Shown piece after piece: positions 12,580-37,346 of a stretch of 43,202 bases of DNA. The stretch is from a virus, in the IMG/VR virus record IMGVR_UViG_3300027788_000022, positions 1-43,202 of that record. The stretch is one strand, 5' to 3'. The notes beneath the pieces were generated by a model. It was not told the origin of the DNA and made no database searches. It saw only the letters and a program-made list of their open reading frames with translations. The position numbers were made by a program, and so were the translations under genes. Within the stretch, counting starts at the first letter, position 1. Every line of letters starts with the position of its first letter.

Positions 12580-14994
12580 TTAACTAGGCGGCATTATATT
12601 TTGTAAACCAAACGTACCTAGTTGCGATGAGTCTCCACCCTCAAAATCGACTGGAGCTGAATCGTTTTGTCGTTGATTTATTAATTGACTTTGTTGAGTT
12701 CCTTGTAATTTAACTCTTTTATCTTTTCGGTCTTCAATTTGTTTTTCTTTATCACCTTCAACACCTAGCTTTATTTGAGCTAATTGTTTTTGGTATTCAA
12801 ATTCTTGAGCCATTAATTGTTTTTTAACCGAAAGCTCTGTCTGCATTCTTTCTATTTCGAATTGAGACTTAGCTTGTTCAACCTGCACTTGAGATTGTGT
12901 TAACGCTTGATTTTTTTGAACTTCAGCCATAGCCGCGGCTTCTGAAGCCTGTGCGTTAGCTTGACCTTGAGCTTGAATCATTTTTTCTTGATTAGCTTGA
13001 TCTCTTTGTAATTTTTTAGTTCTTTTCTGTTTTAACAGTTGGTTTGCTAATTTTAAATTCTTTATTTGTCTTATATCTATAGCGTCTTCTAGATCTATAC
13101 CTTGATTTTGTAATGATATCTGTATGTTGTTTTCTAGCTGAGCTTTTTCTTCGTCATCAGGTTCGAGTTCTAGGAATATACCAAAATCGTGTAAATTTAA
13201 ATTAGAAACTTCAGTTAAAGTATTTGCGTTAAATAACGATATACTTTCTATTAAAGCATTTTTTGTTAATGGAAAATTCAATACATCAACCATTTTTAAA
13301 GATATGTTTTCACATATTCTAAGAGCTAAAAACAAACTACCTTGATTAATATGTTTAGTTGCTATGTTTGATTGATTAGCGGCCATCTTAGCTATACCTA
13401 CTAACGCATCTTTATCTTGCATGCTTCCATCTCTAGCTTCATTAAGCCCAGTGACGTCTCTTATCATTTGTAAATAATAATTATAAGTCATTATTAAACT
13501 TTGAAGCTTAGCGCTACCAGCTGAGGAAGTTAGTTCTTGAATAGGAACTTTACCTCTGTTTAATTCACCATCTTGGGTAAGTGATCTACCAACTATAGAA
13601 CCAGTTTGGAAGTACATGTTTAGTGCTTCTGCTGGGTTGTAATTAGTTCCATTACCTAGGTCAACTTCAGCTAAACCATCCATATCTAAAAATACACCGT
13701 CTGGTACCATTCTAGACAGTACTTGTTGCATTTTTAAATGTGTTATTTGAATCATGTCAGCAAAACCAGTTATTTTACTTACTAAAGATTCTATACGTCC
13801 TTTATACATCCTAGGCGCACATATAGCATAATTCATTTCAACTTTAGTAGAATCAGAAGAAGGTCTTGTCATGTTCTCCGCTAATTCCCATTTAAGCATA
13901 GTGTTAGTACCTAAAACTTTTACACCTGAGTACAATACCTCTATACTTCTTGAAACTTTATCATACGTATCAGCTTCTGGTGGATTAAATTCATCTGTTT
14001 TTTGAATAATTTTCTCTAAGCCATTATCATTGTATTTTAATTTAAATACTTGATTCATGTATGTTTTATACTCAAAATACATTATCTGCACTGTATTAGC
14101 GTCATAATTTCCCCAACCAGTTATATATTGTCTATTACCTGGCATCTCTTGAATTCTTTGTAATTCTTTATCAGATATGTCTGGAAATTGTTTTTTAAGT
14201 TCAGGTATTGTAATTGATTTTACTTCTCCAACATAGTATATGTCTTCAAAGTTTGGATCATCAGTATATGAGTATATTATATGAGCTGGATCAACATAGT
14301 CAACTACTATGCCGTTTGATTTATTAAAGCTAGTTTTTGAACAAGCTATACCACATACAACTAGATCTTCATTTAATCTACGTTTTGTTAGTGGCCATCT
14401 GTTTTTTGCTAAGGTAGTTGTTATTGCTTCTTCTTCTGCTATTTCTATAGATTGCTTATAAGAAAGCTGCATATGCAGTTCTAGCTCTTCTTTAGTTTTA
14501 GGTAGTTGATCTGCCGGCATGTTAGATTGACCTGTATCTATGCCGAGATTATCTTTAGCCATTTGCATTAACTCTTGAGCATACATGTCTTCAGCTATTG
14601 CAGCAGCATAATTAGTTCTTTTCTTTACTGACTCAGGGTCTTGAGAAAAAGCTTTTATGTCAAATTCTTTATTAGAAATACCATTTACTACTATATCAAC
14701 AAATTTAGATATCACCGGTACTGGTTTCCAGTCTAAATTTAAATAAGACAAATCTCCATTAATAGATAATTCATCTTTGTATTTTTGAACAGACTGTTCT
14801 CCTCTTGCGTATAATCTTAGATTATGAAAATTATTCCAACTAGTAAGATATCTATTACCATTAGTTCTGCCTTGATTAAACCACTCTGTTTCAATAGCGG
14901 ATGCTACTTGAGATCCATACTCCCATGAAGCTTTTTCCGCGTCTGGTACTACCTGACTTGGAAAAGCACTATTTGAATTAGTATATATTTTCAT
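12580..14994 (-). CDS. Portal protein
   Basis: An 804-residue protein directly after the large terminase (adjacent, no gap). Length and order (terminase, portal, scaffold, capsid) fit the portal of crAss-like podoviruses, a dodecameric ring at the head vertex through which DNA is pumped. Visible parts: an N-terminal wing region (DLSYLNLDWKPVPVISKFVD near residue 90), a helical core, VPDGVFLDMDGLAEVDLG near residue 440, and a C-terminal Gln-rich coiled coil (about 655-765), perhaps the barrel facing the head interior. No catalytic motif, as expected. Good confidence from size, order and sequence character. Confidence 0.78.
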   Translation of the reverse strand: MKIYTNSNSAFPSQVVPDAEKASWEYGSQVASAIETEWFNQGRTNGNRYLTSWNNFHNLRLYARGEQSVQKYKDELSINGDLSYLNLDWKPVPVISKFVDIVVNGISNKEFDIKAFSQDPESVKKRTNYAAAIAEDMYAQELMQMAKDNLGIDTGQSNMPADQLPKTKEELELHMQLSYKQSIEIAEEEAITTTLAKNRWPLTKRRLNEDLVVCGIACSKTSFNKSNGIVVDYVDPAHIIYSYTDDPNFEDIYYVGEVKSITIPELKKQFPDISDKELQRIQEMPGNRQYITGWGNYDANTVQIMYFEYKTYMNQVFKLKYNDNGLEKIIQKTDEFNPPEADTYDKVSRSIEVLYSGVKVLGTNTMLKWELAENMTRPSSDSTKVEMNYAICAPRMYKGRIESLVSKITGFADMIQITHLKMQQVLSRMVPDGVFLDMDGLAEVDLGNGTNYNPAEALNMYFQTGSIVGRSLTQDGELNRGKVPIQELTSSAGSAKLQSLIMTYNYYLQMIRDVTGLNEARDGSMQDKDALVGIAKMAANQSNIATKHINQGSLFLALRICENISLKMVDVLNFPLTKNALIESISLFNANTLTEVSNLNLHDFGIFLELEPDDEEKAQLENNIQISLQNQGIDLEDAIDIRQIKNLKLANQLLKQKRTKKLQRDQANQEKMIQAQGQANAQASEAAAMAEVQKNQALTQSQVQVEQAKSQFEIERMQTELSVKKQLMAQEFEYQKQLAQIKLGVEGDKEKQIEDRKDKRVKLQGTQQSQLINQRQNDSAPVDFEGGDSSQLGTFGLQNIMPPS

Positions 14995-17229
14995 TTATTC
15001 AATTATTTGTGATAATGTACCTTCATTATTATATTTTTTAAAACCTAAGCTAAACGACGGTCTTTTAAATTCAGGATTTGGTTTATATTTATTCTTGTTA
15101 CAAGCCATTATAGCTAATCCAGAACTAATTGAAGCATCATGAGAAGTTCTATTATTAATATTAAACCTAGCCCAATCTTCTAATGTTCTTTGAAAATATA
15201 CATCTCCATATTCTCCATCTTCTTTCAAACCAACGTGATCCTCTATATATGACTCTATAGCGGCTGCGTGTGCTTGCTTTATATCTTCACTAGAATTAGG
15301 TATTCCACCTATTTCTCTCTCTGTTGTTGATAGTTTGTTATATTTTTTATCAGGTCTATTTATTGAGTAACCTCTATAACCTCTTCTTTTAAAGTAATAC
15401 AATAACCTAGGTTTATTATTTTCAGCCAATATAGGCATTCCATAAAAAACACAAGCCATCAAAACATCTTCAAAAAATATCTCAGCGGTTTGTGGTCTAG
15501 CTATGTACTCTAAAAAAAAGTGATTAGGTGGAACGTGGTCCATGCTAAATTTAGTTAACCCAGTAAGAGCTCCATTAGAACCTCTGTTATCGACTGTACC
15601 TGATATATCGTAACTATCACATCCAAATGCTCCAGCATGCTCATTACCTGGCCATTTTAATCCATTTTTAAATATTACACTATTTTGCATATCTAAAGAA
15701 GGTATCCATGATACGAAAAATCTACCTTGCTTGCTTGGTTTAAAAACAACCTTAGTATCTTTAACTCCATTAACCCAATGAAAACCACCTTGTGTGATTA
15801 TACCGCTATTTTTCAAATCAGAATTCCAATCTATTTGCTGGTATATCTTAGTTAGATTAAATAAAGAAGACTTCGCTTCATCTCTAAACGCGTGTTCTTC
15901 GGTTCTTGGAAACTGGCGATAAAATTCATTTAAACCATCTTGATCTTCCTTTAAACCATTTACTTCATTTTGCCAATACTCAATTACACCTGTTTTAATT
16001 TTATTACCATGAGGATCTTCTACTTCTTTCTTTGGTGTGTCGAAGACAGGTAGGCCATAAGAATCAATGTATCCTTCGTAGTTCCACTCCATAGGAATGA
16101 ACAAAGAATAGAGTCCTGAACCAGTCTGTCCATTGGCATTTCTCTTTGTAACGTCTGAAGCATTGTATAGTTTTTTAAAGTTTGCACCTCCTTTATCTAA
16201 AGCGTTTGATGTTGATCCCATCATACACTTTCCAATAACTCTACTACCTAATCTGAGGGTGGTTTTCGTAACCCTCCAGTTGTTTTGGATATTGTTGGGC
16301 CTTTCCCATTTCCCGCTTTCATCATGGACGAGGAGCCTGAGCTTCTCTCCATCGTAGGCATTGTCCCCCGTGTTCTTCCAGTCGATGGTGGTGTCCAAAC
16401 CGGTAATCTCTTTTTGGGCTTTATTGGAATCAAGTTTTCTACGTGTGAATTTGGAGGCAGGGACTCTGTAGGCAAGTTCGGTCTTTGGACGGTCCATTCC
16501 GTCCTGAATCGGTTTGAAAAAGAAGGGATAATTAACGGAGATGGGTACAACCTTATCTGTGAACATCTTCTTAGCATCGGCACCAGATTTGGACAATATT
16601 CCGTACCGTGAATCCGTTGATATCGTAGCAAGGTTGACTGATTCAGCTGAGGACATAAATGAAAAGCCTGACCTACGGTTTTTAAGATAACACATTCCAT
16701 AAGACCGTGCGTCTGCTTTGCAGGCTTCCCAGAAAATGTAGAATAATCTATTTGATTCCCTAAAGTCCGGCTGCCCAACATCAATTTTGGACCACTGCAG
16801 GTACATATAATTAGTGCCAGTAATGTAAGTAGGAACACCTTTATTAGTGAACCAAAAACCTTCTTCACGCCTTGTAAATTCTTTGTCAATATAGTCATAC
16901 CATTTTTCTTTAAAGTCTGAAGGGTATTCTTCCCAGTCAAACACAGATTTGATTCTATTTAATTCTTTTGGGTATGATGTATAAGTCCATTTATCTTTTT
17001 CAAAGTTAAAAACATCTTTTTGTTTAGGTAAAGCTATTTTAAGATTTTGTATTTCATAAATCTCGTCAATTTCACCTGTTTTGCTTATAACTATTAAGTC
17101 GTGTTCTTTATTATAACCATAATCCCATTTTTTATACCTATTCATTCTATTAAGAACTTTAGGCTCTACGCAGTCTTTTAAGACTTTGTATAAACTTTGC
17201 TTATACATTTTTAGATCTACCTTCTGCAA
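14995..17229 (-). CDS. terL: Terminase large subunit
   Basis: A 744-residue DNA-packaging motor: N-terminal ATPase, C-terminal RNase H-like nuclease. ATPase: Walker A-like KNRRSGFSF (183-191; unusual, no canonical GKS/T), hydrophobic Walker B ending in D303-E304 (LRLLVHDESG), and GSTSN (338-342) as likely coupling motif. Nuclease: GCDSYD with D538, an acidic residue near 603, and HDAS near 695. Portal follows with no gap; the putative small subunit precedes it with a 29-base overlap. Odd: about residues 143-410 are encoded by DNA near 45-55% GC while flanks are around 25-33%, suggesting exchange of the ATPase region. Family certain enough; Walker A departure worth checking. Confidence 0.85.
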   Translation of the reverse strand: MQKVDLKMYKQSLYKVLKDCVEPKVLNRMNRYKKWDYGYNKEHDLIVISKTGEIDEIYEIQNLKIALPKQKDVFNFEKDKWTYTSYPKELNRIKSVFDWEEYPSDFKEKWYDYIDKEFTRREEGFWFTNKGVPTYITGTNYMYLQWSKIDVGQPDFRESNRLFYIFWEACKADARSYGMCYLKNRRSGFSFMSSAESVNLATISTDSRYGILSKSGADAKKMFTDKVVPISVNYPFFFKPIQDGMDRPKTELAYRVPASKFTRRKLDSNKAQKEITGLDTTIDWKNTGDNAYDGEKLRLLVHDESGKWERPNNIQNNWRVTKTTLRLGSRVIGKCMMGSTSNALDKGGANFKKLYNASDVTKRNANGQTGSGLYSLFIPMEWNYEGYIDSYGLPVFDTPKKEVEDPHGNKIKTGVIEYWQNEVNGLKEDQDGLNEFYRQFPRTEEHAFRDEAKSSLFNLTKIYQQIDWNSDLKNSGIITQGGFHWVNGVKDTKVVFKPSKQGRFFVSWIPSLDMQNSVIFKNGLKWPGNEHAGAFGCDSYDISGTVDNRGSNGALTGLTKFSMDHVPPNHFFLEYIARPQTAEIFFEDVLMACVFYGMPILAENNKPRLLYYFKRRGYRGYSINRPDKKYNKLSTTEREIGGIPNSSEDIKQAHAAAIESYIEDHVGLKEDGEYGDVYFQRTLEDWARFNINNRTSHDASISSGLAIMACNKNKYKPNPEFKRPSFSLGFKKYNNEGTLSQIIE

Positions 17230-17482
17230 AACCTTTAAAAGCTTTTTCTTCTTTAGCTTCTTTTGGTTTATTGTTTAATAAATCTTCTTCCAATTGTATT
17301 CTTGCTAATATTTCAAAAGCATCAAATATAGCTAATTTCTTAGTAGCTGCCGCGTTTTTTAAACGATCAGCAGATATATCTTCGTCAGAATCTACAATAG
17401 CTTCTTTCGCAACTTTAATTAGTTCTTCAACCGCTATTTGCCCAGCTTGGATTATATTCTTTTTTGTTTCGTTGATCTTCAT
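17201..17482 (-). CDS. Putative terminase small subunit
   Basis: A 93-residue, largely helical protein immediately upstream of the large terminase, its 3' end overlapping the terL start by 29 bases. The helices (NIIQAGQIAVEELIKVAKEA and LKNAAATKKLAIFDAFEILA) and acidic C-terminus are compatible with a small terminase subunit that recognises phage DNA, but a helix-turn-helix is not obvious. Assignment rests on position and overlap with terL. Its 5' part overlaps the GroES-like gene by 56 bases, so the three genes are tightly coupled in translation. Confidence 0.45.
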   Translation of the reverse strand: MKINETKKNIIQAGQIAVEELIKVAKEAIVDSDEDISADRLKNAAATKKLAIFDAFEILARIQLEEDLLNNKPKEAKEEKAFKGFAEGRSKNV

Positions 17483-18032
17483 ATTTGATTACAATATCAT
17501 TTGATTTCATACAATATAAACGCTCTTTCTCTACTAGAAAATCGTATTCTCCGTAAGGTGTATAACCAACAGTGTCTCCTTCGGTTATTCCTAAAGCATC
17601 TAACGAACTATTACCTATTTTTAGTATACCAATAAGCTTTTGTTCTTTAGTGTTTTCTAAGTCATCGTTAGACTTTAACGGTTTAATGAAACATCTATTA
17701 TTAATAGATTTCCATTTGCTATCTCTCTTATAAAGATAAACTTGATCTAATGCACAGAAATACATACCATCTATAAAAGATGATCTACTTTTCTTTTTAG
17801 TACCTTTAACGTCATAGAAAGTTCTAAATACATTATGATGAATAATTACAAAATCGCCTTTTTTTACAGGAGTGTTAAATGCCGCTGGCACTTCTATAAC
17901 TTCCGCTACATTGTTGACAAATTTAAAACTTTCAATTTTAGTATTTAATACAATTTCTTTATCACCGACAAGAATCTTATTATCATATTCTTCTCCAACA
18001 GGTCTAACTATAAAGTCGTATAAACTTCTCAC
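17427..18032 (-). CDS. Tandem GroES-like (Cpn10) co-chaperonin protein
   Basis: A 201-residue protein that looks like two GroES folds in one chain. Half 1 (about 4-103): YDFIVRPVGEE opening, a candidate mobile loop with the tripeptide IVL (27-29, KEIVLNT), then VKKGDFVIIHHN and MYFCALDQVYLYK. Half 2 (about 113-185): CFIKPL opening, no obvious mobile loop, then EGDTVGYTPYGEYDFLVEKE and LYCMKSNDIVIKY, which align by eye with the C-terminal half of GroES (GDxVxF...GEEYLLLxESDILAI). Canonical GroES is about 95 aa. A second, normal GroES is encoded at 24065-24325. It sits among packaging genes, so it may serve capsid or terminase folding, or be structural. Fold is fairly sure; function is not. Confidence 0.7.
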   Translation of the reverse strand: MRSLYDFIVRPVGEEYDNKILVGDKEIVLNTKIESFKFVNNVAEVIEVPAAFNTPVKKGDFVIIHHNVFRTFYDVKGTKKKSRSSFIDGMYFCALDQVYLYKRDSKWKSINNRCFIKPLKSNDDLENTKEQKLIGILKIGNSSLDALGITEGDTVGYTPYGEYDFLVEKERLYCMKSNDIVIKYEDQRNKKEYNPSWANSG

Positions 18033-23621: not shown

Positions 23622-24068
23622 TTATTTGTTTTTATCGGTATTTACATTTTTTATAGAAGTTATTAAAACTTTATCCATATATGTTTTACCTTTCATTATT
23701 TTATTTCTTCTAGAACTAGTTGGAATTTTTTCTTTACCCAACATTGTTTTATAAATCCTATTTATCAATTGCTTACCTTTAAAAGATATTTTATATATAT
23801 TATATGTTTGAGTGGTTCTATTTCTTTTTCTCCAAACAGTAATCCAATCTTCTTTTATAAGCCTAGCCCATCTTCTATTATCCCAGCTGTAGGAATACAC
23901 ACCTGCTTCAAAATCTTTTTTAGTAAATAAATCAATACAATCTAAATATATTAATAGTTCTAAATCAGACTCACGTAAGTTGTTGTTTTTACAAGCCCAT
24001 TTGCGTATTATACGGTAATGTTTTAGCAAGTTCATATCTTTTAAATCTCCTGCTTCTAGCTTTTTCAT
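23622..24068 (-). CDS. Winged-helix (MarR-like) DNA-binding-type protein
   Basis: A 148-residue basic protein. It has HYRIIRKWACKNNNLRESDL (about 17-36), ELLIYLDCIDLFTKKDFEAG, then WARLIKEDWITVWRKRNRTT followed by YNIYKISFKGKQLINRIYKT, an arrangement of helices and a beta wing like MarR-type winged-helix proteins. Start and GroES stop overlap as ATGA (24065-24068), so it is translated with the chaperonin operon. It may be a late regulator, or a winged-helix protein used structurally. I recognise the family as recurrent in uncultured marine phages, without known function. Confidence 0.6.
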   Translation of the reverse strand: MKKLEAGDLKDMNLLKHYRIIRKWACKNNNLRESDLELLIYLDCIDLFTKKDFEAGVYSYSWDNRRWARLIKEDWITVWRKRNRTTQTYNIYKISFKGKQLINRIYKTMLGKEKIPTSSRRNKIMKGKTYMDKVLITSIKNVNTDKNK

Positions 24069-24325
24069 AAAACAACAACCACATCTTGTGTTTTAATTAC
24101 GTGGTATGATTTATTGCTTATTTCAATCTTGTGACCAGCATGTCTATCGTAGTATATAAGGTCTTGTTTTTTTAAACCCATAACTTCATCTCCTACTTCT
24201 ATTACGTTGGCTTTAACGTATCTTATATCGTCTCTATGTAATCCTGCTAAAAGTAAACCACCTGTTGTCTCGGTGGTTCCTTCTTCTATTTTTTCTATTA
24301 TTAAATTTCTACCTATTGCTTTCAT
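24065..24325 (-). CDS. groES: GroES co-chaperonin (Cpn10)
   Basis: An 86-residue GroES-like protein, slightly shorter than bacterial GroES (about 95). Opening MKAIGRNLIIEKIEEG, mobile loop TTETTGGLLLAG (18-28) with the hydrophobic tripeptide LLL in place of IVL, then VKANVIEVGDE, and the C-terminal YYDRHAGHKIEISNKSYHVI followed by TQDVVVVL. It caps the GroEL ring and contacts it with the mobile loop. The start lies inside the groEL 3' end (17-base overlap) and the stop overlaps the next start as ATGA. Gene order is groEL then groES, the reverse of the usual bacterial groESL operon, which argues against recent capture of a host operon as a unit. Confidence 0.88.
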   Translation of the reverse strand: MKAIGRNLIIEKIEEGTTETTGGLLLAGLHRDDIRYVKANVIEVGDEVMGLKKQDLIYYDRHAGHKIEISNKSYHVIKTQDVVVVL

Positions 24326-25880
24326 CTATTCTCATATTATTGATTACACAATCAGTAGATAATATTGTTGATGCCACGGAAGCTGCGTTTATTAAAGCAC
24401 TTTTAGTTACCAACAAAGGATCTATAATACCTAATTCCACCATATTTACCATTTTTCCTGTAACCACATCTAATCCTTCACCTTTTGATTTTTTCAAATA
24501 ATCGGTTTTTTCAGATGTTAAAACTATACCAGCGTTTGCTAGTAAGGTGAAAAAAGGTGCCCTAATAGCTTTTAATAATATCTTTTCCCCAATAGAAATT
24601 GGTTGTAATATGTTAGAAGCATTTAATAAAGCGATTCCTCCTCCTGGTACAATGCCTTCTTTAATAGCAGCTTTTGTAGCACAAATAGCATCCTCAACTC
24701 TATCACTTTTTTCTTTTAATTCAATATCAGAATTAGCACCTATTTTAACTACAGCAACTTTAGCGCTTAATCTAGCTAATCTTAGTTCTAACCCAACTTG
24801 AATATGAGGTTTGTTTTTATTTTTTAAATCTTCTTTTATAGTAGCAATTATATCTTCAACCTCATCAGAAGCTTCATGTATCTGTATAATTGTTTGATCT
24901 TGGGTTGATGTTGATTTAACGCAGCTACCTAAATAATCTACTTGTATCGCGCTAAGGTCGTCACCTAAATCTTCATTTATAACTGTTGCCCCTGTTAGCA
25001 AGGATAGATCTCCAAAAATTTCTTTTCTTCTTAATCCAAATGCAGGCGGTTCAACAACGTTTATTTTAATGTTGCCTTTTTTCTTGTTCATAACTAAAGC
25101 AGATAGTACTCCTGCTTCAATGTCACCTATTATTAATAAGGCTTTGTTTTTTTTGATAACGTGCTCCAACACTGGTTGCACTTGTCTTATAGAATCTACT
25201 TTTGAATCCATCAATAAAACTAAAGCATTATCTAATTCTGATATGTTTTTTTCTTTATCTGTTATGAATTCTCCATGACAAAATCCTTTATGATATTCTA
25301 CACCTTCAACAATTTCAACTTCAGTAACTCCACCATCTGATGGTTCCATTGTTACAACACCTGTTTCACCAACTGCTCTAAAAGCGTCAGCTATTAATGT
25401 GCCTAATTGCTTATCATTGTTTGTAGATATAGTTGCTATATCATCTATCATATTTCCTTCTACAGGTATAGATATAGATTTTAAATAATCTATAACTTTT
25501 TCAACTCCTGATGAAATACCGTCTTTCATTTCTCTGAAACTGTCTTTAGAACTAGCGTCCTCATAAGCATGTTTCATTATTGAATGAGCTAACACCGTAG
25601 CTGTTGTAGTTCCATCACCAGCTTCTCTTACTGTTTTTCTTGCTGCTTCTTTTAATAAAGTAGCACCCATGTTTTCTACGGGGTCTCTTAATATCACTGA
25701 ATTAGCTACCGTTACACCATCTTTTGTAATAATAGGGTTTCCGTTATTGTCTTCCATGATAACACATTTACCGCTAGCTCCTAACGTGGAGCTAACAGCT
25801 TTTGTGAGTTGTTCTATTCCTTTAAACACTTTGTTTTTAGCTTCGTCTCCAAAGCTAAGATTTTTGACGATTCCGTCCAT
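24309..25880 (-). CDS. groEL: GroEL chaperonin (Cpn60), phage-encoded
   Basis: A 523-residue group I chaperonin (E. coli: 548). Essential ATPase residues are kept: D54 in TKDGV, GDGTTTATVLA with D89, and D397 in RVEDAICATKAAIKEG followed by VPGGG. Equatorial, intermediate and apical domains are all present, so it should form an active ring. The C-terminus ends INNMRIDESNR, lacking the GGM-repeat tail. By eye, apical groove residues differ from E. coli: Y203 is E (GEF) and L234 is Q (RQVQPVLEH), compatible with a matched phage GroES and a different client range. Second gene of an operon beginning at 26264; leader is A/T-rich with no Shine-Dalgarno. Confidence 0.93.
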   Translation of the reverse strand: MDGIVKNLSFGDEAKNKVFKGIEQLTKAVSSTLGASGKCVIMEDNNGNPIITKDGVTVANSVILRDPVENMGATLLKEAARKTVREAGDGTTTATVLAHSIMKHAYEDASSKDSFREMKDGISSGVEKVIDYLKSISIPVEGNMIDDIATISTNNDKQLGTLIADAFRAVGETGVVTMEPSDGGVTEVEIVEGVEYHKGFCHGEFITDKEKNISELDNALVLLMDSKVDSIRQVQPVLEHVIKKNKALLIIGDIEAGVLSALVMNKKKGNIKINVVEPPAFGLRRKEIFGDLSLLTGATVINEDLGDDLSAIQVDYLGSCVKSTSTQDQTIIQIHEASDEVEDIIATIKEDLKNKNKPHIQVGLELRLARLSAKVAVVKIGANSDIELKEKSDRVEDAICATKAAIKEGIVPGGGIALLNASNILQPISIGEKILLKAIRAPFFTLLANAGIVLTSEKTDYLKKSKGEGLDVVTGKMVNMVELGIIDPLLVTKSALINAASVASTILSTDCVINNMRIDESNR

Positions 25881-25909
25881 ATTTGATTAGATTAAATTAA
25901 ATTGATAGT

Positions 25910-26224
25910 TTACTTAAAGGTTTTAACGACTTGTGGTCCACGAATATGAGCTAATTTTTTCTCATAATGGTTAATTGAAGCATCTATTGCTGATTCAGCA
26001 CCTTCAATTGTTTCGCGTCTCGTTACGTCGATCCAACTTTCTTCTTTTTTTGGATCTAGGTATTCTGTTTGGTAGAATCCATTTGGTAAATGAACTATTC
26101 TCCAGTTCTTTTTTTGAGCAACATGCTCCCAAATTGATTTGGTTTCTTCCGTAATTTGTGGTTGACTATTCCACGTACTAGTCTGGTAAAATAATGTCAT
26201 TGGTTTTGGTTTTAAATTAGACAT
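25910..26224 (-). CDS. Conserved small marine-phage protein, first gene of chaperonin operon
   Basis: A 104-residue protein with LFYQTSTWNSQPQITEETKS near the start, then WRIVHLPNGFYQTEYLDPKK, WIDVTRRETIEGAESAIDAS and a C-terminus ending VVKTFK. I recognise the pattern (STW..QP.IT, LPNG..QTEY, DVTRRETIEGAE) as recurrent in uncultured marine phages; function unknown. It is the first gene after the promoter at 26247-26264, 29 bases before groEL, so it is co-expressed with the chaperonins. No membrane segment. Confidence 0.6.
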   Translation of the reverse strand: MSNLKPKPMTLFYQTSTWNSQPQITEETKSIWEHVAQKKNWRIVHLPNGFYQTEYLDPKKEESWIDVTRRETIEGAESAIDASINHYEKKLAHIRGPQVVKTFK

Positions 26225-26246
26225 TGGTTATTGCTCTTCCCGAGCC

Positions 26247-26264
26247 GGTTATATTTATATTATC
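26247..26264 (-). promoter_or_regulatory. Promoter of the chaperonin operon (phage promoter family)
   Basis: Minus-strand GATAATATAAATATAACC, 23 bases before the start of the 104-aa gene. It matches the core of the recurring early-region promoter (GATAATATAAATGTAAC) almost exactly, and contains the T4-late-like octamer TATAAATA. The upstream A/C box is only partly present (CAAAC ends exactly 11 bases upstream). A hairpin, GCTC loop GGGAA GAGC, sits at 26233-26245 between promoter and start codon, unlike the unstructured leaders of the plus-strand promoters. Confidence 0.65.
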
Positions 26265-26282: not shown

Positions 26283-29200
26283 TTACACTGATTTAAATGA
26301 CAATACTACTATTGCACTTGCGCCTTGCCAGTATTTACTACCTGCGCTTTTTTGATATGCAAATCTTAATCTATCTCCTTTTGAAAAACTAACGTTTGCA
26401 TCGTATTCTACGTAACTTCCATCGTTAGCACCGTTTGAGGGCGTTAGTTCTCCTGACGTAGCGGCTGTAATTCCATTTTTTAAAACTCTTAACTGCGTAG
26501 TAAAAGAGGTGCTCATGCTGCCAGAAGTATGCATTAACATTATTTTTTCAACTCTACCGTTAGCAGCAGCGGGAATATTATTATAATATTGATTTGAAGT
26601 AGATTCAATGTTGTTATTAAATGGTATCATAAAGTAAGACGTGCTTGATGAAGAGTCAAGAAAATTACTTGTAAATTGAGTTTGCTGAAAGTTAGGTAGT
26701 GTTTGTAATTCTTGATTTATTTCATAAACCGCATCGCTATAACTAATCCTGCAGCTTTCATCTTCGCCAGAAACTACAACAAAATCTTTTATTTCTGGAT
26801 CATCTCCATCAATGTCATTTAACTCGTTAAGATCCACACCTAATGATACCGTTCCAGACGATCCTCCACCACTTAAGCCTGTGCCTGCTGTTACACCAGT
26901 TATATCTCCTACGTTTGAAGTATAGCCTTGATTTTTTACAAACGCAGTTGTAGCTAAGTAAGTAGAACTATCTGCTGTTGCCCTTGTTACAGATATAGGT
27001 GTTGTTGTAAATGTTTTTGTACCAGCAATACTTTGTGTGCCTGATGTTCTTACTACTGTGCCATCTACGACAATATTATCTGCGTTAGCCGTTATACCGT
27101 CTCCGCCAATTACATTTAATGTAACTGAACCTGAAGAGCCGCCTCCTGTCATACCTGTCCCTGCTGTAACATTTGTTATATCACCTTGGTTATTACTAAA
27201 ATTATTAGTTACCCATTCAGAGTTTACTGCTTTTTGAGAATCATCGCTGTTACCAACAGTAGGTACTATTGGTGAGCTTGTAAATGTTTTTATATCAGCA
27301 ATACTTTGTGCACCAGATGTTCTTACAACTGTACTATCAACTACAATATTATTTGCGTTAGCCGTTATACCGTCCCCTCCAATCACATTCAATGTAACTG
27401 AACCTGAACTACCGCCACCTGTCATACCAGTTCCTGCGGTAACATTTGTAATATCACCTTGTGGTATACTTGGAAAAGTAGCCAGCGAACCATCACCTCT
27501 TACGTAAGAAGCGGTATTGCCTTTCCAGGTTAATGTCAGCGTGCCGTTTGCTGTTAGCGTGTTAGATCCTTCTAAAGAATTACCGTTGGTTGTTGCAGCT
27601 ATACTGCTTATTGTACCTGTGTTAGTAGTATATCCTGAGTTATTAGTCCATTGACTAATATTACCACTTTTATTAGTAAAAGCTTGTGCATTAGAGGCGG
27701 TTGTTGTTCCAGTGTTTGTTGTATACCCTTCGCCATTGGTAAGTTGATTATTATTAGTAATGTAGTTTGCGTTAGCTGCACCAGAATATCCTAAGTTAGC
27801 TAAAGTTAACGTTCTACTGGCAAATGAGGTTAAAACACCTTGCGTGTAATTCATCGTTTGCAGAACTGACGCGTTATTAAGAGTAATATCGTCGTTGGTC
27901 CCTATAGTGGTATTACCTGTGTTAGTAATTTGTATAGTTCCTCCACTTGAAGTACTAGTCATTTCAGATGTAATTCCTACTCCTTGAGCTATAGTAAATG
28001 TTTCTCCATTTGTAACTGTAGTGCTCTCTGTTCCATTACCTTCTTTAATAATCCAAGAAGACATTGATCCTCCTGAAGATGTTACATACCCAGAGTCATT
28101 TGTCCACTGAGATATGTTACCACCTTTGTTTATAAAGGTTTGTGCATTGCTTGCGGTAGTAGTTCCAGTATTAGTAGTATACCCTTGACCATTAGTTATA
28201 GCGTTATTATTTAAAGATATATTTGCTGAACCATTAAATGAAACACCAGCTATAGTTCTTGCTGTTTGCAACACAGTTGCAGAACCTGCATTACCTGTTA
28301 TTGTTGTCTGAACAATATTAGGTTTTGTGTTAGTTATAGTTAATGTTCCTCCACTTGAAGTAGAAGTAAGTTCAGATTGTATACCATTACCCTGTGCAAA
28401 AGTTACTGTTTCGCCATTTGTAACAGTACTTGTTTCTGTACCATTTCCTTCTTTTAAAATCCAGGTAGACATTGAACCTCCTGAGGACGTTACATATCCT
28501 GAATCATTAGTCCATTGTGATATGTTACCACCTTTGTTTGAGAATGTCTGTGCGTTAGTAGCAGTTGTGGTACCTGTAAAATAATCTCCTAATTCTCCAG
28601 AACCTAATATAACTTGTGCGTTATCTCCTTCAAATTGTAATTGTAAAGTTCCTGAACCTGTTACTGGTGAGCCAGATACTGATATAGCATCATCCACGTC
28701 CATTAAAAGACCTACACTTGTAACTGTACCTGTTGAGGACGAGGTTCCAGCACCTATTAAACTTCTAACCTCAGATGCTAATATACCTGAATTTAAACTT
28801 GGTACACTACCATTAGATAAAATTGCGGGAATACCTGTATCATTGACAACTCCTAAGTTAGTCCTTGCGCCAGCCGCAGAACTTGATCCAGTACCGCCAT
28901 TTGCTACAGATAAGTCTGTACCTGACCAGTTTCCGTTATTAATACTAACTGATCCACCTAAAGTAATAGTTCCTGTAGAGGTTATTGTCCCCCCAGTTAA
29001 TGTTATTCCATTTACAGTACCACTTGTTGCAACAGATGTTACACCTTGCCCATCAGTAGTAGCGTTAATAGTTATTGTATCACCAGATCTAACCGTAGTA
29101 ATATTGCTACCAGCTGCAATAGTTAAAGTGTCATTGTTACTGTTTGCTGTGGCTGTTCCACCTGAACTTGCTGTAAAGTTTTTATATATAGCTTGTGATG

Positions 29201-31106
29201 ACCCTCTATCTGTGTTAGTTAAAGTTCCAGTGCTTGTTATTGTACCACCAGATAATCCTGTACTTGTTGCTATAGATGTTACTCCTGCACTACTTGATGT
29301 ACCTGCGCCAATTAATGTACGAATCTCCGGACCTGTAACACCTGATGCTAAAGTAGGTGTTCCTCCACCAGAGAATATACCTGGTTCAGCAAATGATGTA
29401 AAACCTGAATCATTTAAAAATATGCTTAAAGGTATATCTACAAATTGAGTCTTTAAAGAAGAACCATCATCAGAAGAATCAGATCCGTAAATCATATAAT
29501 CATCACCATCTGGAGTAGATCCACCTGGAGCAGCCATAACAAGAGAATCAGAACCTAAGTAATCTATAGCCACATCATTTGCATTAGCGGTAATACCTGT
29601 TCCTCCTATAACGTTTAGTGTTACTGAACCTGAAGTACCACCACCTGTCATACCTGTACCTGCGGTAACTCCAGTTATATCACCCTGAGGTATACTCGGG
29701 AAGGTAGTTAAATTACCTGCACCATTTACATACTGAGAAGCAGATCCTGCCATTGTAATAGCAAGTGTACCTGATGTAGTTACTGCTGAACCTGTGTTAA
29801 ATGCATTTCCTCCATGAGAAATTCCTACACTTGTTACAGTTCCTGTGTTTGTAGTATACCCAGCTCCATTAGTAAGTTGGTCATTGTTTGTTGCTATTGT
29901 AGTGCTATTAAAAGCATTAGAGCCATATGTATACGTTTGGTTTGTAGTACCTAATACACTAAACGTAAGTGTATTTCCTGATTTACTTATACCATCAAGA
30001 TAAAAGTTATCGTTATTATCATTTGGATTAAACGTAATAGTATCTGTAGTAGCGTTAGTTGTAATAGTCATTCCACCACTTGCAACAAAAGTAAGCGTGT
30101 CATTATTGCTATCAGCTACCACGGTTGATTGCCCGCTTACAGCTATGTTTTTAAATATGTTTTGTGAAGAACCTTTATCTGAGTTTGTTAAAGTTACTGT
30201 TCCGCTTGTACCACCACCTCCCAAACCGGTTCCCGCGGTTACACCAGTGATATCACCTTGTGGTATACTTGGAAAAGATACTAAATCACCTTCTCCATTT
30301 ATATAATCAGTTGTATCACCTTGAAAAGTTATACCTAAGTTTCCACTAGTTGTTACAGGCGTACCTATAATTGCTATTGCATCTCCTTGAGAAGTTAACC
30401 CTACACTTGTAACTGTACCTGTTGAGGATGAAGTACCTGCTCCAATTGCTGTTCTAAACGCACTAGCGCTTAGCGCGGTAACGCTATTATTTGCGTTAAA
30501 CCTTGGGAAAGTTATAGCGCTTGGATTTGCAAGCGTGAACATTGATTTACCAATAGTTGCAGCTCCTAAGTTACCTAATGCTGATGTTGCTGAAGAAGCA
30601 CCTGTACCTCCGTTGGCAATTGATAGATCTGTACCTGACCAATCGCCATTGTTAATAGCAAGAGTTCCACCTAATGTTATAGTTCCTGTAGAAGTAATAG
30701 TACCTCCAGTTAGTGTTAGTCCGTTTTTTGTGCCTGATGTAGCTACAGATGTTACGCCTGAAGATGTAACGTATCTTCCATCGAGATCTACTGTTACGCT
30801 ACTTAAACCTTGTCTTGCTGCTGTTAATATACCACTAGTAGTATTAAAACTTAAGCTGGTCAAATAATTGTTACTTCCTGATTCGTCTGCCCAAGAAGCT
30901 GTAATAGTACCCCCGTCTTGTTGAGTAGCTGTTAACGTTTTTGTATTAGTTCCTGTTACAGCTAATCCAGTAATCATATTATCATAAGATGTATTCCATT
31001 GGGTAGAAGTACCCCCTGGTGCCGTTATGACACCACCAGAGGTTATAACTCCCCCGGTGGTCAACGTGCCTTTTACATCTTGATCTGCATAATATATTAT
31101 AGCCAT
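26283..31106 (-). CDS. Large repetitive tail fibre protein
   Basis: A 1607-residue beta-rich fibre. It contains at least five copies of a Gly/Thr/Ser repeat (GDITGVTAGTGLxGGGTSG type, near residues 282, 475, 1215, 1307, 1400) and two copies of a longer block (NISQWTNDSGYVTSSGG...), so it grew by internal duplication. The C-terminal 150 residues (FTSNFLDSSSSTSYFMIPFN, ending QGASAIVVLSFKSV) differ from the repeats and look like a receptor-binding or trimerisation head. N-terminal virion-attachment part: MAIIYYADQDVKGTLTTGG. Such fibres bind host surface glycans or proteins. Expected to work with the three other fibre genes just upstream. Confidence 0.75.
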   Translation of the reverse strand: MAIIYYADQDVKGTLTTGGVITSGGVITAPGGTSTQWNTSYDNMITGLAVTGTNTKTLTATQQDGGTITASWADESGSNNYLTSLSFNTTSGILTAARQGLSSVTVDLDGRYVTSSGVTSVATSGTKNGLTLTGGTITSTGTITLGGTLAINNGDWSGTDLSIANGGTGASSATSALGNLGAATIGKSMFTLANPSAITFPRFNANNSVTALSASAFRTAIGAGTSSSTGTVTSVGLTSQGDAIAIIGTPVTTSGNLGITFQGDTTDYINGEGDLVSFPSIPQGDITGVTAGTGLGGGGTSGTVTLTNSDKGSSQNIFKNIAVSGQSTVVADSNNDTLTFVASGGMTITTNATTDTITFNPNDNNDNFYLDGISKSGNTLTFSVLGTTNQTYTYGSNAFNSTTIATNNDQLTNGAGYTTNTGTVTSVGISHGGNAFNTGSAVTTSGTLAITMAGSASQYVNGAGNLTTFPSIPQGDITGVTAGTGMTGGGTSGSVTLNVIGGTGITANANDVAIDYLGSDSLVMAAPGGSTPDGDDYMIYGSDSSDDGSSLKTQFVDIPLSIFLNDSGFTSFAEPGIFSGGGTPTLASGVTGPEIRTLIGAGTSSSAGVTSIATSTGLSGGTITSTGTLTNTDRGSSQAIYKNFTASSGGTATANSNNDTLTIAAGSNITTVRSGDTITINATTDGQGVTSVATSGTVNGITLTGGTITSTGTITLGGSVSINNGNWSGTDLSVANGGTGSSSAAGARTNLGVVNDTGIPAILSNGSVPSLNSGILASEVRSLIGAGTSSSTGTVTSVGLLMDVDDAISVSGSPVTGSGTLQLQFEGDNAQVILGSGELGDYFTGTTTATNAQTFSNKGGNISQWTNDSGYVTSSGGSMSTWILKEGNGTETSTVTNGETVTFAQGNGIQSELTSTSSGGTLTITNTKPNIVQTTITGNAGSATVLQTARTIAGVSFNGSANISLNNNAITNGQGYTTNTGTTTASNAQTFINKGGNISQWTNDSGYVTSSGGSMSSWIIKEGNGTESTTVTNGETFTIAQGVGITSEMTSTSSGGTIQITNTGNTTIGTNDDITLNNASVLQTMNYTQGVLTSFASRTLTLANLGYSGAANANYITNNNQLTNGEGYTTNTGTTTASNAQAFTNKSGNISQWTNNSGYTTNTGTISSIAATTNGNSLEGSNTLTANGTLTLTWKGNTASYVRGDGSLATFPSIPQGDITNVTAGTGMTGGGSSGSVTLNVIGGDGITANANNIVVDSTVVRTSGAQSIADIKTFTSSPIVPTVGNSDDSQKAVNSEWVTNNFSNNQGDITNVTAGTGMTGGGSSGSVTLNVIGGDGITANADNIVVDGTVVRTSGTQSIAGTKTFTTTPISVTRATADSSTYLATTAFVKNQGYTSNVGDITGVTAGTGLSGGGSSGTVSLGVDLNELNDIDGDDPEIKDFVVVSGEDESCRISYSDAVYEINQELQTLPNFQQTQFTSNFLDSSSSTSYFMIPFNNNIESTSNQYYNNIPAAANGRVEKIMLMHTSGSMSTSFTTQLRVLKNGITAATSGELTPSNGANDGSYVEYDANVSFSKGDRLRFAYQKSAGSKYWQGASAIVVLSFKSV
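27054..27189 (-). repeat. Near-identical DNA repeat within fibre gene (copy 2 at 27329-27464)
   Basis: About 136 bases recur at 27329-27464 (period 275) with scattered, mostly third-position differences. Both encode the GDITNVTAGTGMTGGGSSGS module. Synonymous divergence shows protein-level selection after duplication. A second duplicated block lies near 27930-28150 and 28340-28560. Confidence 0.7.
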
Positions 31107-34801: not shown

Positions 34802-34842
34802 ACATACACAATACATATTCACTCTGATAATATAGTTGTAAC
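34802..34842 (+). promoter_or_regulatory. Phage two-block promoter, copy 1
   Basis: Upstream box ACATACACAATAC (11 of 13 to consensus), exactly 11 bases, then GATAATATAGTTGTAAC. Lies in the divergent region; its transcript would run through the repeat cluster before the first early gene. Confidence 0.6.
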
Positions 34843-34934
34843 ACATTAGCCTGACACTGCAAGACTGTCGGAAGAGTATACTCCGTCCTACTCCACACTG
34901 TATTGCCACCACATCACCACACTCGACTGTGTAT

Positions 34935-35018
34935 ATGACAGATTGTCATGACATTACTGTTAATAATATATATTAATATGTATGACACATTGACACATTG
35001 TGGTATGACATCATGACA
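34935..35018. repeat. ATGACA repeat cluster (iteron-like)
   Basis: Five ATGACA copies (34935, 34948, 34982, 35005, 35013), one TTGACA (34990) and one inverted TGTCAT (34944) within 84 bases. They flank the AT palindrome-like TTAATAATATATATTAA at 34960-34976. The arrangement of short direct repeats plus AT-rich unwinding-type DNA resembles iteron origins. The first two form a small hairpin (TGACA GAT TGTCA). Confidence 0.55.
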
Positions 35019-35040
35019 TATCTAACTACTAAACTAATAT

Positions 35041-35081
35041 ACACACTTAATACAGATATCTATTGATAATATAAATGTAAC
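35041..35081 (+). promoter_or_regulatory. Phage two-block promoter, copy 2
   Basis: Upstream box ACACACTTAATAC (10 of 13), exactly 11 bases, then GATAATATAAATGTAAC, preceded by TT. The RNA would begin at the left edge of the G-free tract. Confidence 0.65.
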
Positions 35082-35293
35082 CAATTAAAACTATATAATA
35101 TCAAACTAACTACAAACAAATATCAAATTAAAAAAACTATTAATATTCTAACAAATAATCATTACAATATTAAATCTTTAAATAATAAAATAATTATATT
35201 ATCTCAATATCAAAAACATAATATAACTAAACTATTAAATACTAATTATATAAAATACAAAATAACAAATTAATACAAACAAAATACAAAACA
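35078..35293 (+). other. 216-base G-free tract
   Basis: Not one G occurs on the plus strand between the G at 35077 and the G at 35294, while C is common. It contains no ATG, so it is not coding on this strand. It lies between promoter copies 2 and 3. An RNA from copy 2 would have a G-less, nearly structure-free leader over 200 bases long. See findings. Confidence 0.9.
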
Positions 35294-35315
35294 GTATTGA
35301 TAATATAAATGTAAC
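35275..35315 (+). promoter_or_regulatory. Phage two-block promoter, copy 3
   Basis: Upstream box ACAAACAAAATAC, exactly 11 bases, then GATAATATAAATGTAAC. Drives the first plus-strand gene (start 35355) through a G-free, A-rich leader with no Shine-Dalgarno. Confidence 0.7.
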
Positions 35316-35354
35316 TAACAAACTAATAATAATAATAACTTAAATAAATAAACT

Positions 35355-35582
35355 ATGTCAAAATTAAATTCAAAAAGATTTGTAATCAGAAAATCTTTAA
35401 TCGGAAAAAACACTACTATCAATGTAGTATTCAAAAATGGAAAATCAGTAACTTATAATCACGATAAAGTGTATGAAGTAATGAAGTCTAAACTTGAAAC
35501 TATGAACTGTTTCATTAAGTATAAATCATATACTTCTTCAACTTCAGTTCCTGTATTAGTCAGAGAATTAATGGAAGTATAA
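35355..35582 (+). CDS. Small hypothetical early protein
   Basis: A 75-residue basic protein (MSKLNSKRFVIRKSLIGKNT), likely alpha/beta; no known domain. First gene of the rightward block, directly under promoter copy 3. First-expressed small basic phage proteins often target host functions, but nothing in the sequence shows it. A 17-base imperfect palindrome (GAAGTATAATATACTTC) overlaps its stop codon. Confidence 0.6.
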   Translation: MSKLNSKRFVIRKSLIGKNTTINVVFKNGKSVTYNHDKVYEVMKSKLETMNCFIKYKSYTSSTSVPVLVRELMEV

Positions 35583-35596
35583 TATACTTCAAAAAA

Positions 35597-35683
35597 GGGT
35601 GACTCATCGAACCCGAGTGGTACACAAACTGATGAGGAAAAATGAAGTAATGGTTCATGTGAGTTCGATTCTCACAACTTCAA
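35597..35683 (+). ncRNA. tRNA-like RNA 1: pseudoknot plus acceptor/T-arm minihelix
   Basis: Intergenic. 3' part: a T-arm (GTGAG, loop TTCGATT, CTCAC at 35659-35675) carried by an acceptor-like stem TGAAGT (35643-35648) with ACTTCA (35677-35682); D and anticodon arms are missing, only a 9-base bulge lies between. 5' part: GGGT (35597-35600) with ACCC (35611-35614), and CTCATC (35603-35608) with GATGAG (35631-35636) form an H-type pseudoknot of good geometry (2-base loop over a 6-bp stem). No CCA. A stacked acceptor and T-arm is a known minimal substrate for tRNA-processing enzymes, so it may be an mRNA processing site; biochemical role unknown. Confidence 0.5.
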
Positions 35684-35708
35684 CTAACAATAAATAAATA
35701 ATTAAACT

Positions 35709-35858
35709 ATGAGAAAATTTCATCACAATAAAGTATTAAATATACTTACAGGAGTAGTAGTATACTCTTCAGTCACACTAATAATAACTTGTTCACTAAT
35801 GATATTGTTTAATCTTTTTGTAAACGGTGCTCCAACTTCCTTCGGAATATACGGGTAA
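35709..35858 (+). CDS. Small membrane protein
   Basis: A 49-residue protein read directly from the sequence: MRKFHHNKVLNILTGVVVYS, then a hydrophobic stretch (TLIITCSLMILFNLFV) and a short tail ending FGIYG. One or two membrane segments. Leader AACAATAAATAAATAATTAAACT fits others here. Its stop (35856) lies 2 bases before promoter copy 4. Confidence 0.55.
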   Translation: MRKFHHNKVLNILTGVVVYSSVTLIITCSLMILFNLFVNGAPTSFGIYG

Positions 35859-35859
35859 T

Positions 35860-35899
35860 ACAAACAAAATACGATTCAGAATGGATAATATATACGTAA
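35860..35899 (+). promoter_or_regulatory. Phage two-block promoter, copy 4
   Basis: Upstream box ACAAACAAAATAC, exactly 11 bases, then GATAATATATACGTAAT. The leader after its last G to the start codon of the next gene (35925) is G-free. Confidence 0.65.
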
Positions 35900-35924
35900 T
35901 CAATAATTAATAAATAATATTCAA

Positions 35925-36047
35925 ATGAAAAATTTAATCAATCAAATCAAATCAGAATTTCCATTCAATCCAGAAACTGACTGTCGAGAAAAATATAATG
36001 AAATGATTCAAGATTATTTATATGAAGAAATAATAATAAAACTATAA
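35925..36047 (+). CDS. Small hypothetical protein (40 aa)
   Basis: Forty residues, MKNLINQIKSEFPFNPETDC followed by an acidic helical segment ending EEIIIKL. First gene after promoter copy 4, typical A-rich leader. No family recognised. It and the next two short genes are 4 bases apart, which suggests an operon. Confidence 0.5.
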   Translation: MKNLINQIKSEFPFNPETDCREKYNEMIQDYLYEEIIIKL

Positions 36048-36051
36048 TAAT

Positions 36052-36186
36052 ATGAAATATACACTAACCTGTGATAACGGTAAAGAAATCGATATGACTT
36101 CTTACATAATACAACAATCAGAAAATAAAATAACTAGACAAGATGTTCTTAACAGAATAGAGTTCTATAAATCAACTAATAAATAA
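36052..36186 (+). CDS. Small hypothetical protein (44 aa)
   Basis: Forty-four residues, MKYTLTCDNGKEIDMTSYII followed by QQSENKITRQDVLNRIEFYK. Alpha/beta, no known domain. Starts 4 bases after the previous stop (TAATAATATG). Confidence 0.5.
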   Translation: MKYTLTCDNGKEIDMTSYIIQQSENKITRQDVLNRIEFYKSTNK

Positions 36187-36190
36187 TAAT

Positions 36191-36310
36191 ATGTCACACA
36201 TGAATACTACCTTACTTAAAATAAGTTACAGAAAATACAATAAATGTTACAGTGAATTAACTAGTAACGAAAGATCAACAGTTTTAAATATATACTATGA
36301 CTTCTACTAA
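36191..36310 (+). CDS. Small hypothetical protein (39 aa)
   Basis: Thirty-nine residues, MSHMNTTLLKISYRKYNKCY, then SELTSNERSTVLNIYYDFY. Starts 4 bases after the previous stop and overlaps the next gene start by 14 bases. No family recognised. Confidence 0.45.
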   Translation: MSHMNTTLLKISYRKYNKCYSELTSNERSTVLNIYYDFY

Positions 36311-36491
36311 ATTTAAAGATTACCCTCAAGAACAGATCGACGCGAAACTTAAACAAGTAGAAGAGTTCGAGTTAAAATTCGGTGAAAAATCTGTAAGTAA
36401 ATCATGGAGAAGATGGTGTACTGACGCGAAATACAGACAAAACGAGTGGAAATTCAGACAGAATATCGCTAACTGGATGGAGAAAATGTAG
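36297..36491 (+). CDS. Small basic helical hypothetical protein
   Basis: A 64-residue protein, Lys/Arg/Trp-rich and helical (LKQVEEFELKFGEKSVSKSW, then RRWCTDAKYRQNEWKFRQNI). May bind nucleic acid, judged only from its charge. Overlaps the previous gene by 14 bases. Confidence 0.5.
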   Translation: MTSTKFKDYPQEQIDAKLKQVEEFELKFGEKSVSKSWRRWCTDAKYRQNEWKFRQNIANWMEKM

Positions 36492-36505
36492 ACTACAAAT
36501 AGTTT

Positions 36506-36546
36506 ACAAACATAATACAAAAACTATATGATAATATAGACGTAAC
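36506..36546 (+). promoter_or_regulatory. Phage two-block promoter, copy 5
   Basis: Upstream box ACAAACATAATAC (12 of 13), exactly 11 bases, then GATAATATAGACGTAAC. G-free leader up to the start at 36570. Confidence 0.65.
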
Positions 36547-36569
36547 AAATAACAAATAATAAATATACT

Positions 36570-37211: not shown

Positions 37212-37346
37212 ATGAAAATAGAATTAACAGAAAACGATTGTACTTTTGTACACTATGTACTAAGAATGTACGCACAACAGACACCTGGAATGGACGCTGA
37301 TGATAAAGCAGAAATAAGAGAAGTCGCAGCTAAATTTAAAATATGA
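37212..37346 (+). CDS. Small hypothetical protein (44 aa)
   Basis: Forty-four residues, MKIELTENDCTFVHYVLRMY then AQQTPGMDADDKAEIREVAA. Amphipathic helices. Immediately follows the previous stop; its own stop overlaps the next start as ATGA. No family recognised. Confidence 0.5.
   Translation: MKIELTENDCTFVHYVLRMYAQQTPGMDADDKAEIREVAAKFKI

Follow-up and report, generated by a model that had tools for sequence, protein, structure and literature searches.

A phage groEL-groES operon and a Cpn20-like tandem gene beside the terminase: a putative self-contained folding machine of a phage lineage

Introduction

Does a phage that encodes both GroEL and GroES bring a complete folding machine of its own, and what would this machine fold? 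The question is raised by a stretch of viral DNA of 43,202 nucleotides (IMG/VR record IMGVR_UViG_3300027788_000022), the whole of which is called the window below. An earlier note, made from the sequence alone, had pointed out an overlapping groEL-groES pair; added here is a third gene, located in the packaging operon, whose product appears to consist of two GroES-like domains in tandem. The interpretation favored here, with a probability of roughly 0.6, is that the pair and the tandem lid form a self-contained group I folding machine of the phage for late virion proteins, for which we infer the ring state of GroEL, the client, and the lid stoichiometry. In the literature searched (open-licence PMC papers), no description of a phage Cpn20-like or tandem GroES protein was found, nor of the variant that combines GroEL, GroES, a tandem lid with one loop, and a predicted single ring.

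The groEL-groES operon

The predicted GroEL (Table 1) matches PF00118 with 183.7 bits (cut-off 34.3) in a domain over residues 25–515, and PHROG 5725 across residues 5–517. Its AlphaFold2 (AF2) model, with a predicted local distance difference test score (pLDDT) of 76.4, aligns with solved GroEL chains over about 490 residues at Z-scores of 30–35, and the full-length Cpn60 architecture is present. GroES scored 40.2 bits against PF00166 (cut-off 21.1). GroEL exceeds the NCBIfam subfamily cut-offs of NF009487 and NF000592 but with 472.9 bits stays below the equivalog cut-off of TIGR02348 (582.1 bits), and GroES likewise remains under the NCBIfam GroES equivalog cut-off; both proteins are therefore divergent members of their families. 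The two open reading frames (ORFs) overlap by 17 nt (24309–24325) in the order groEL-groES. Pfam, NCBIfam, and PHROGs thus agree with the earlier note on a full-length GroEL and a separate, overlapping GroES, and the catalytic residues D54, D89, and D397 that it named are present and align with D52, D87, and D398 of Escherichia coli. Its account of the pair stands but was incomplete, as it omitted the tandem GroES-like gene, the loss of inter-ring contacts in GroEL, and the first gene of the operon. The latter codes for 104 amino acids and lies immediately 5′ of groEL in 56 of the 64 viral loci that offer room for it.

Besides its Cpn10 domain, GroES possesses the hydrophobic tripeptide of the mobile loop (LLL at residues 24–26); in alignment A2, which comprises 27 rows including E. 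coli (IVL), this tripeptide is LLL or LIL in 23 rows. The roof span is 11 residues long, versus 20 in E. coli. A short roof was considered as a gp31-like, cage-enlarging trait and discarded: 8 of 75 cellular GroES are equally short and 67 longer, so this feature is not special to the phage protein.

Table 1. Features of the window discussed in the text, with the evidence for each assignment.
Feature	Position	Strand	Basis
Virus record, IMG/VR (linear)	1-43,202		
Virion structural protein, 492 aa; possible capsid protein and putative client	9818-11296	-	PHROG 13704
Portal protein	12580-14994	-	PHROG 6547
Terminase large subunit	14995-17229	-	PHROG 6681
93-aa gene between tandem gene and terminase, no assigned function	17201-17482	-	ORF call
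Tandem co-chaperonin-like gene (Cpn20-like), 201 aa, GTG start	17427-18032	-	PHROG 13932, AF2, fold match
groES, single-domain co-chaperonin, 86 aa	24065-24325	-	PF00166, PHROG 3188, alignment A2
groEL, group I chaperonin, 523 aa	24309-25880	-	Pfam/PHROG, residue table, AF2 model
104-aa gene, first of operon, no assigned function	25910-26224	-	ORF call, locus comparison
Promoter-like motif GATAATATAAATATAA, copy of early-arm core	26249-26264	-	Motif search
Promoter-like motif, six exact copies, early control region and arm	34826-37572	+	Motif search

Origin of the chaperonin genes

If the phage had simply taken up a host groE operon in recent times, the group I family of this GroEL and the retention of every catalytic residue would be in keeping with it. 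Identities, the phylogenetic tree, and gene order all contradict such a capture. Among the best hits of a genome scan, true cellular GroELs are at most 43% identical to the window GroEL. In a tree of 60 rows, the window clade formed one group with a support of 95 in the Shimodaira–Hasegawa-like approximate likelihood ratio test (SH-aLRT) and was joined with the GroELs of Elemovirus, the Maribacter phage Panino, and podovirus MW202828 (97 for the set), apart from the GroELs of Bacteroidota. Long branches, present in several of the phage rows, make the deeper branching order unsafe; the join of Panino with MW202828 was likewise marked as unsafe. Gene order was compared with a cellular control that consists of the scan's best hits rather than a random sample (78 of 80 loci kept): groES is located just upstream of groEL in 74 of these loci, elsewhere in one, and was not found in three. 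The groEL-groES order of the phage is thus the reverse of the bacterial one, as the earlier note had claimed, and the tree and identity check that it had proposed gave no indication of capture. A recent acquisition from a host is accordingly ruled out for practical purposes.

The two loci removed from the control, L175 (DQLC01000067.1) and L176 (JAAGZR010000009.1), are contigs in metagenome-assembled genomes labelled Alphaproteobacteria and Aliivibrio, with 51 and 62% identity, respectively. Both were rejected as cellular relatives and treated as viral because genes of the phage lineage flank groEL: the 104-amino acid gene in both cases and, in L175, also GroES and a 148-amino acid gene. Their placement in these genomes likely reflects binning errors.

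The ratio of nonsynonymous to synonymous substitution rates between the window and related loci was 0.07–0.15 for groEL (six loci), 0.08–0.24 for groES (six loci), and 0.11–0.16 for the tandem gene (five loci). By sequence, the groEL-groES operon is intact and long conserved, and it represents an old viral lineage.

Occurrence and gene order in phages

A scan of IMG/VR for GroEL relatives retrieved 73 loci, nearly all at 57–100% identity. The groES ORF begins inside the end of groEL in 72 of them, with overlaps of 1–28 nt; the remaining locus is a 575-bp fragment cut within groEL. As many loci are near-identical copies, these counts do not represent independent events. The co-occurrence search suggested in the earlier note hence found GroES with GroEL throughout the lineage, and its view that a self-contained pair is rare is not supported: the pair is the rule here, and annotations of isolated phages include related pairs. 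By tblastn, 283 phage records match GroEL, every one at less than 60% identity. Overlapping groEL and groES genes in this order are also found in Elemovirus (Flavobacterium phages; 60 kb) and in MW202828, which share with the window a separate GroES-like gene of greater length that lies next to the terminase or close to it; the Elemovirus GroEL differs, however, in being only 39.6% identical to that of the window, and the surroundings of the pair differ as well. Panino and the Cellulophaga phage phi38:1 resemble the window in having GroEL, a small GroES-like gene, and a tandem gene before the terminase. In Panino, groEL is followed by a small ORF and then by an ORF resembling the window GroES, whereas phi38:1 deviates from the window by the order Cpn10-x-groEL; in Immutovirus the order is groES-groEL. 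With related pairs present in the loci of the lineage and in isolated Flavobacterium, Maribacter, and Cellulophaga phages, the groEL/groES pair is of a known kind whose gene order differs between phage lineages. In a 2017 article in ISME J, Marine et al. reportedly connected subunit gene order with the phylogeny of GroEL, and the presence of GroEL with large genomes.

GroEL homologs, related to those of Cellulophaga phages, have been described in 36 genomes of phi38:1-like marine group 2 Bacteroidetes phages (Nishimura, 2017; PMC5332604); a term search of that text returned no mention of GroES. Two further observations concern single records. In the crAss-like phage cr108_1 (L259), a 92-amino acid ORF of GroES size (2951–3229) overlaps the end of GroEL. 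In another record (L123; 129,537 bases), about 64 kb separate two matches to GroEL, of which the second is split in two; the record probably represents a single genome of about 64 kb that was assembled head to tail.

The tandem GroES-like protein

The tandem protein matches PHROG 13932 ("co-chaperonin GroES") with an E-value of 2.7e-23, and its homologs in Elemovirus, Panino, and phi38:1 are annotated as co-chaperonin GroES or cpn10. Its C-terminal half aligned with GroES profiles at hhalign probabilities of 81–93%. The AF2 model, calculated from a 61-row alignment, has a pLDDT of 86.1 and a predicted template modelling score of 0.79. Chain R of 7ekq, described as Cpn20 and of algal origin, was the best solved match (Foldseek E-value 1.1e-6), and VIA-align superimposed residues 1–185 of the model on residues 11–194 of this chain (Z 10.1; root-mean-square deviation 4.1; 160 residues). 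The best named match in a viral library was the "Chaperonin cpn10" of Cellulophaga phage phi18:3, and a phmmer search against the sequences of solved structures returned one weak, unrelated match (E-value 0.11).

The chloroplast and apicoplast Cpn20, which provides the best solved structural match, likewise has tandem GroES-like domains. In chloroplasts it works with a single-domain Cpn10 (PMC5780408), much as the tandem protein of the phage occurs beside GroES. The model of the phage protein contains the two domains in one chain, the N-terminal one recognized by fold and weakly by sequence. A mobile loop in both domains is a trait of Cpn20. In the phage protein, all 61 rows have the hydrophobic tripeptide in the N-domain. 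The loop of the C-domain is shortened, with a run of three hydrophobic residues in one row only, so that 60 of 61 rows lack a second mobile loop of the Cpn20 kind. Further differences are an identity of 15–17% and the location of the phage gene in a packaging operon. Because the C-domain loop is lost in the phage clade, the modelled protein may work like a Cpn20 but should not be called one.

Several observations weigh against a co-chaperonin role of this protein. The N-terminal half scores weakly against the GroES profile (hhalign probability 18–22%), and the assignment of that domain therefore depends on the model; the whole protein falls short of the Pfam Cpn10 cut-off (15.5 versus 21.1 bits); and the Foldseek template modelling score to Cpn20 is a modest 0.53. 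Moreover, lids with one loop are not universal among the relatives, since the C-domain of the phi38:1 protein retains a longer, loop-like segment with DNGLRV.

Conservation next to the packaging genes

The tandem gene has at least 598 relatives. Among the matches listed, 144 of 145 loci have an ORF for the terminase large subunit no more than 1.5 kb downstream of the tandem gene; the single locus without it ends 2 bases past this gene. Co-occurrence with GroEL was counted in both directions. Within the 73 GroEL loci there are 43 records of at least 20 kb, and 39 of these contain the tandem gene. Conversely, 24 of 80 tandem-lid loci were inspected (the larger contigs, minus records already covered by the GroEL loci), and 19 of them had GroEL among the matches listed. 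The usual spacing between groEL and the lid gene is 4.3–8.7 kb. In each of the nine misses, the contig stops short of this spacing or inside it: the four GroEL records (L040, L041, L043, and L069) end 5.3, 5.3, 0.4, and 0.9 kb past groEL, and the five tandem-gene records (L152, L135, L141, L132, and L147) begin 0.5, 1.4, 2.6, 4.3, and 8.0 kb before the lid gene. Given this range, the two misses at 5.3 kb are not decisive. The tandem gene was furthermore found in 77 isolate records, with GroEL seen alongside in Elemovirus, Panino, MW202828, and phi38:1; in one record (G028) it contains two stops. The place and order of the groEL/groES pair thus vary from lineage to lineage, whereas the tandem gene remains beside the genes for packaging.

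This fixed position just before the terminase and portal genes could also mean that the tandem protein is a packaging or head-assembly part that reuses a GroES-like fold, and that the 86-amino acid GroES alone serves the phage GroEL. The lack of a hydrophobic run in nearly all C-domain loops would suit such a part, as would the resemblance of the N-terminal half to GroES-like domains of dehydrogenases (Z up to 6.1), which we take to reflect the general GroES-like fold. The best fold match by Z-score is, however, a co-chaperonin (10.1 versus about 6 for dehydrogenases), the N-domain tripeptide is kept without exception, and among the matches listed the tandem gene accompanies GroEL wherever a record extends beyond the spacing usual for the two. 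In phi38:1, the neighboring virion genes are annotated as structural proteins but the tandem gene is not. We therefore regard a pure packaging role as unlikely, although it deserves serious consideration, and prefer to see the tandem protein as a lid of the phage GroEL.

Residues of GroEL and predicted ring state

Residues were compared, in E. coli numbering, between 69 sequences of the window clade (the window and 68 of the 73 loci, omitting L074 as well as L002, L037, L039, and L065, which are cut or open) and the 78 cellular GroELs. T30, G32, K51, D52, D87, T89–T91, D398, G415, and D495, which we take to be ATPase residues of E. coli GroEL, are kept in all 69 clade sequences. The positions of the ring interface have fared differently. 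E461, S463, and V464, nearly conserved in the cellular sequences, are deleted in 49 and replaced by V, T, or S in 20 clade sequences, and contacts of the double ring are thus deleted or changed at 461, 463, and 464 in the entire clade; the stretch around these positions is gapped and poorly conserved, and its uncertain alignment speaks against relying on them too heavily. R452 is replaced by K in 20 clade sequences, E in 12, S in 11, N in 9, and other residues elsewhere; A109, which is A or S in all cellular rows, becomes K in 21, S in 13, L in 12, D in 9, and other residues elsewhere. The 20 C-terminal residues contain 0–2 G or M in all 69 clade sequences versus 8–16 in at least 65 of the 78 cellular ones, and G375, invariant among the latter, is K or R throughout the clade. 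The GroELs of Elemovirus, Panino, and phi38:1 also differ from that of E. coli at several of the positions altered in the clade.

The substitutions R452E/E461A/S463A/V464A turn E. coli GroEL into a single ring (PMC12696368, PMC5575113). Based on the loss of ring–ring contacts, the GGM tail, and the hinge glycine, the phage GroEL is predicted to be a single-ring chaperonin as well. It resembles the single rings of phages OBP and AR9, SR1 GroEL, and mitochondrial Hsp60 in lacking inter-ring contacts at the SR1 positions, but here the single ring is a prediction, and the OBP and AR9 chaperonins have been described as lid-independent. Chaperonins of phages EL, OBP, and AR9, lid-independent and wholly or transiently single-ring according to published descriptions (PMC9598537, PMC5934643, PMC7185714), suggest another explanation, in which the phage GroEL acts without a lid and both lids serve host GroEL or other ends. 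Throughout the clade (69 of 69), L234 is indeed replaced by Q, and Y203 by H, E, or N. Retention of F204 (68 of 69) and L237 (69 of 69), the near-invariable overlap of groES with groEL, and the LLL or LIL tripeptide in most GroES rows argue otherwise, and a lid-free mode of action is very improbable compared with a GroEL closed by lids of the phage.

Promoter-like motif and timing

The earlier note had placed the operon under the promoter core of the early arm. The core, GATAATATANNNRTAA, has seven exact copies in the window (Table 1), one of which lies before the 104-amino acid gene, upstream of groEL; allowing one mismatch, 11 matches were obtained versus a mean of 0.63 in 100 shuffles (never more than 3). 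Calling the operon motif a copy of the early-arm core is fair, whereas its role as a promoter is a suggestion from sequence likeness. A TACAAACAAAATAC-like stretch is common to the upstream regions of the early copies, but the groEL copy does not have it at equal spacing. Some relatives (for instance the L004, L021, and L038 groups) carry a motif-like sequence with 1–2 changes about 345–415 bp before groEL; comparison of the matching place in other relatives revealed no clear copy. A scan for sigma-70-type promoters found no excess (81 versus 88.5 in shuffles). Separately, an RNA polymerase sigma-factor-like protein is encoded at 42400–43155 (+; PHROG 351), which might read the GATAATATA motif.

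Since the motif is shared with the early arm, expression of groEL might begin early, and this would fit a chaperonin that mainly remodels host proteins, in stress or defence, instead of folding virion proteins. The operon is, however, situated in the late-strand arm beside a long gene for a fibre-like protein, and the tandem lid is part of the packaging operon, which makes host remodelling an improbable main function and favors late virion proteins as substrates. The fibre-like protein itself (1607 amino acids; 26283–31106, −) has internal repeats such as VTAGTGMTGGG(S/T)SGSVTLNVIGG.

Host and other elements of the window

The isolates related to the window phage infect Flavobacteriia, and a Shine–Dalgarno-like site was found in just one of 42 chosen genes. 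Such sites are largely missing from Bacteroidota. Both lines of evidence make a bacteroidote host probable, and the window is probably part of a podovirus-type phage of Bacteroidota, more precisely of marine Flavobacteriia.

The early arm encodes an ATP-dependent DNA ligase-like protein (40254–41099, +; PHROG 114). A tRNA-like mini-element at 35641–35685 (+) has a short acceptor-like stem, inside which lie AATGGTT and a perfect T-arm (GTGAG-TTCGATT-CTCAC). It has matches in L008 (448–462), L028 (2242–2256), L062, L072, and L175 (− strand); in four aligned phage loci the T-arm is invariant, and both strands of the outer stem vary (TGAAGT/ACTTCA, GACAT/ATGTC). Neither ARAGORN nor Rfam called this element, and a 101-nt stretch containing it folds no better than shuffled sequences.

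A model of the machine and its implications

According to the proposed model, GroEL would work as a single seven-membered ring that is closed by the phage GroES, the tandem lid, or both, for example by three tandem subunits and one GroES, which together provide seven domains. Changes of apical residues in GroEL, together with the absence of a loop from the second domain of the tandem protein, may weaken lid binding, allowing the single ring to release its lid. Clients would be late virion proteins such as capsid, portal, or fibre; because the tandem gene travels with the terminase and portal genes, a head protein is the likeliest guess. The phage would thereby supply folding capacity in place of that of the host, for capsid or fibres. 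That such a GroEL is made is indicated by phi38:1, a phage with an equal gene set, from which methylated GroEL peptides have been reported in infected cells (Table 2 of that study) and in samples of free virions (Table 3; PMC13288928).

T4 gp31 is an example of a phage lid on which capsid folding can depend, and gp31 as well as CocO of RB49 are lids tied to head assembly to which the window lid can be likened (PMC3012670). These lids use host GroEL, whereas the window phage brings its own, and the gp31 type, in which no phage GroEL exists, is therefore not what is found here.

Single-ring GroEL traps its lid, and a seven-fold linked GroES in which two or three modules are disabled restores its function (Illingworth et al.; PMC5575113). 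A natural single-ring chaperonin with a mixed lid of three tandem proteins and one GroES, and thus seven domains but four binding loops, dedicated to phage heads, is a tentative and rather doubtful extension of the model. If true, the mixed lid would be a natural version of the engineered GroES7 lids, in which dead modules enable single-ring GroEL to cycle (PMC5575113). It would also be what a virus has in place of the Cpn10/Cpn20 system of chloroplasts, devoted to head building.

In possessing a tandem lid besides GroEL and GroES, the lineage contrasts with the well-studied chaperonins of EL, OBP, and AR9, which are described as lid-free. With Elemovirus, Panino, and phi38:1, relatives that can be grown are available, which makes lid use by a predicted single-ring group I chaperonin testable, along with the questions why a phage would encode the complete machine and whether the design of Cpn20 may have evolved twice.

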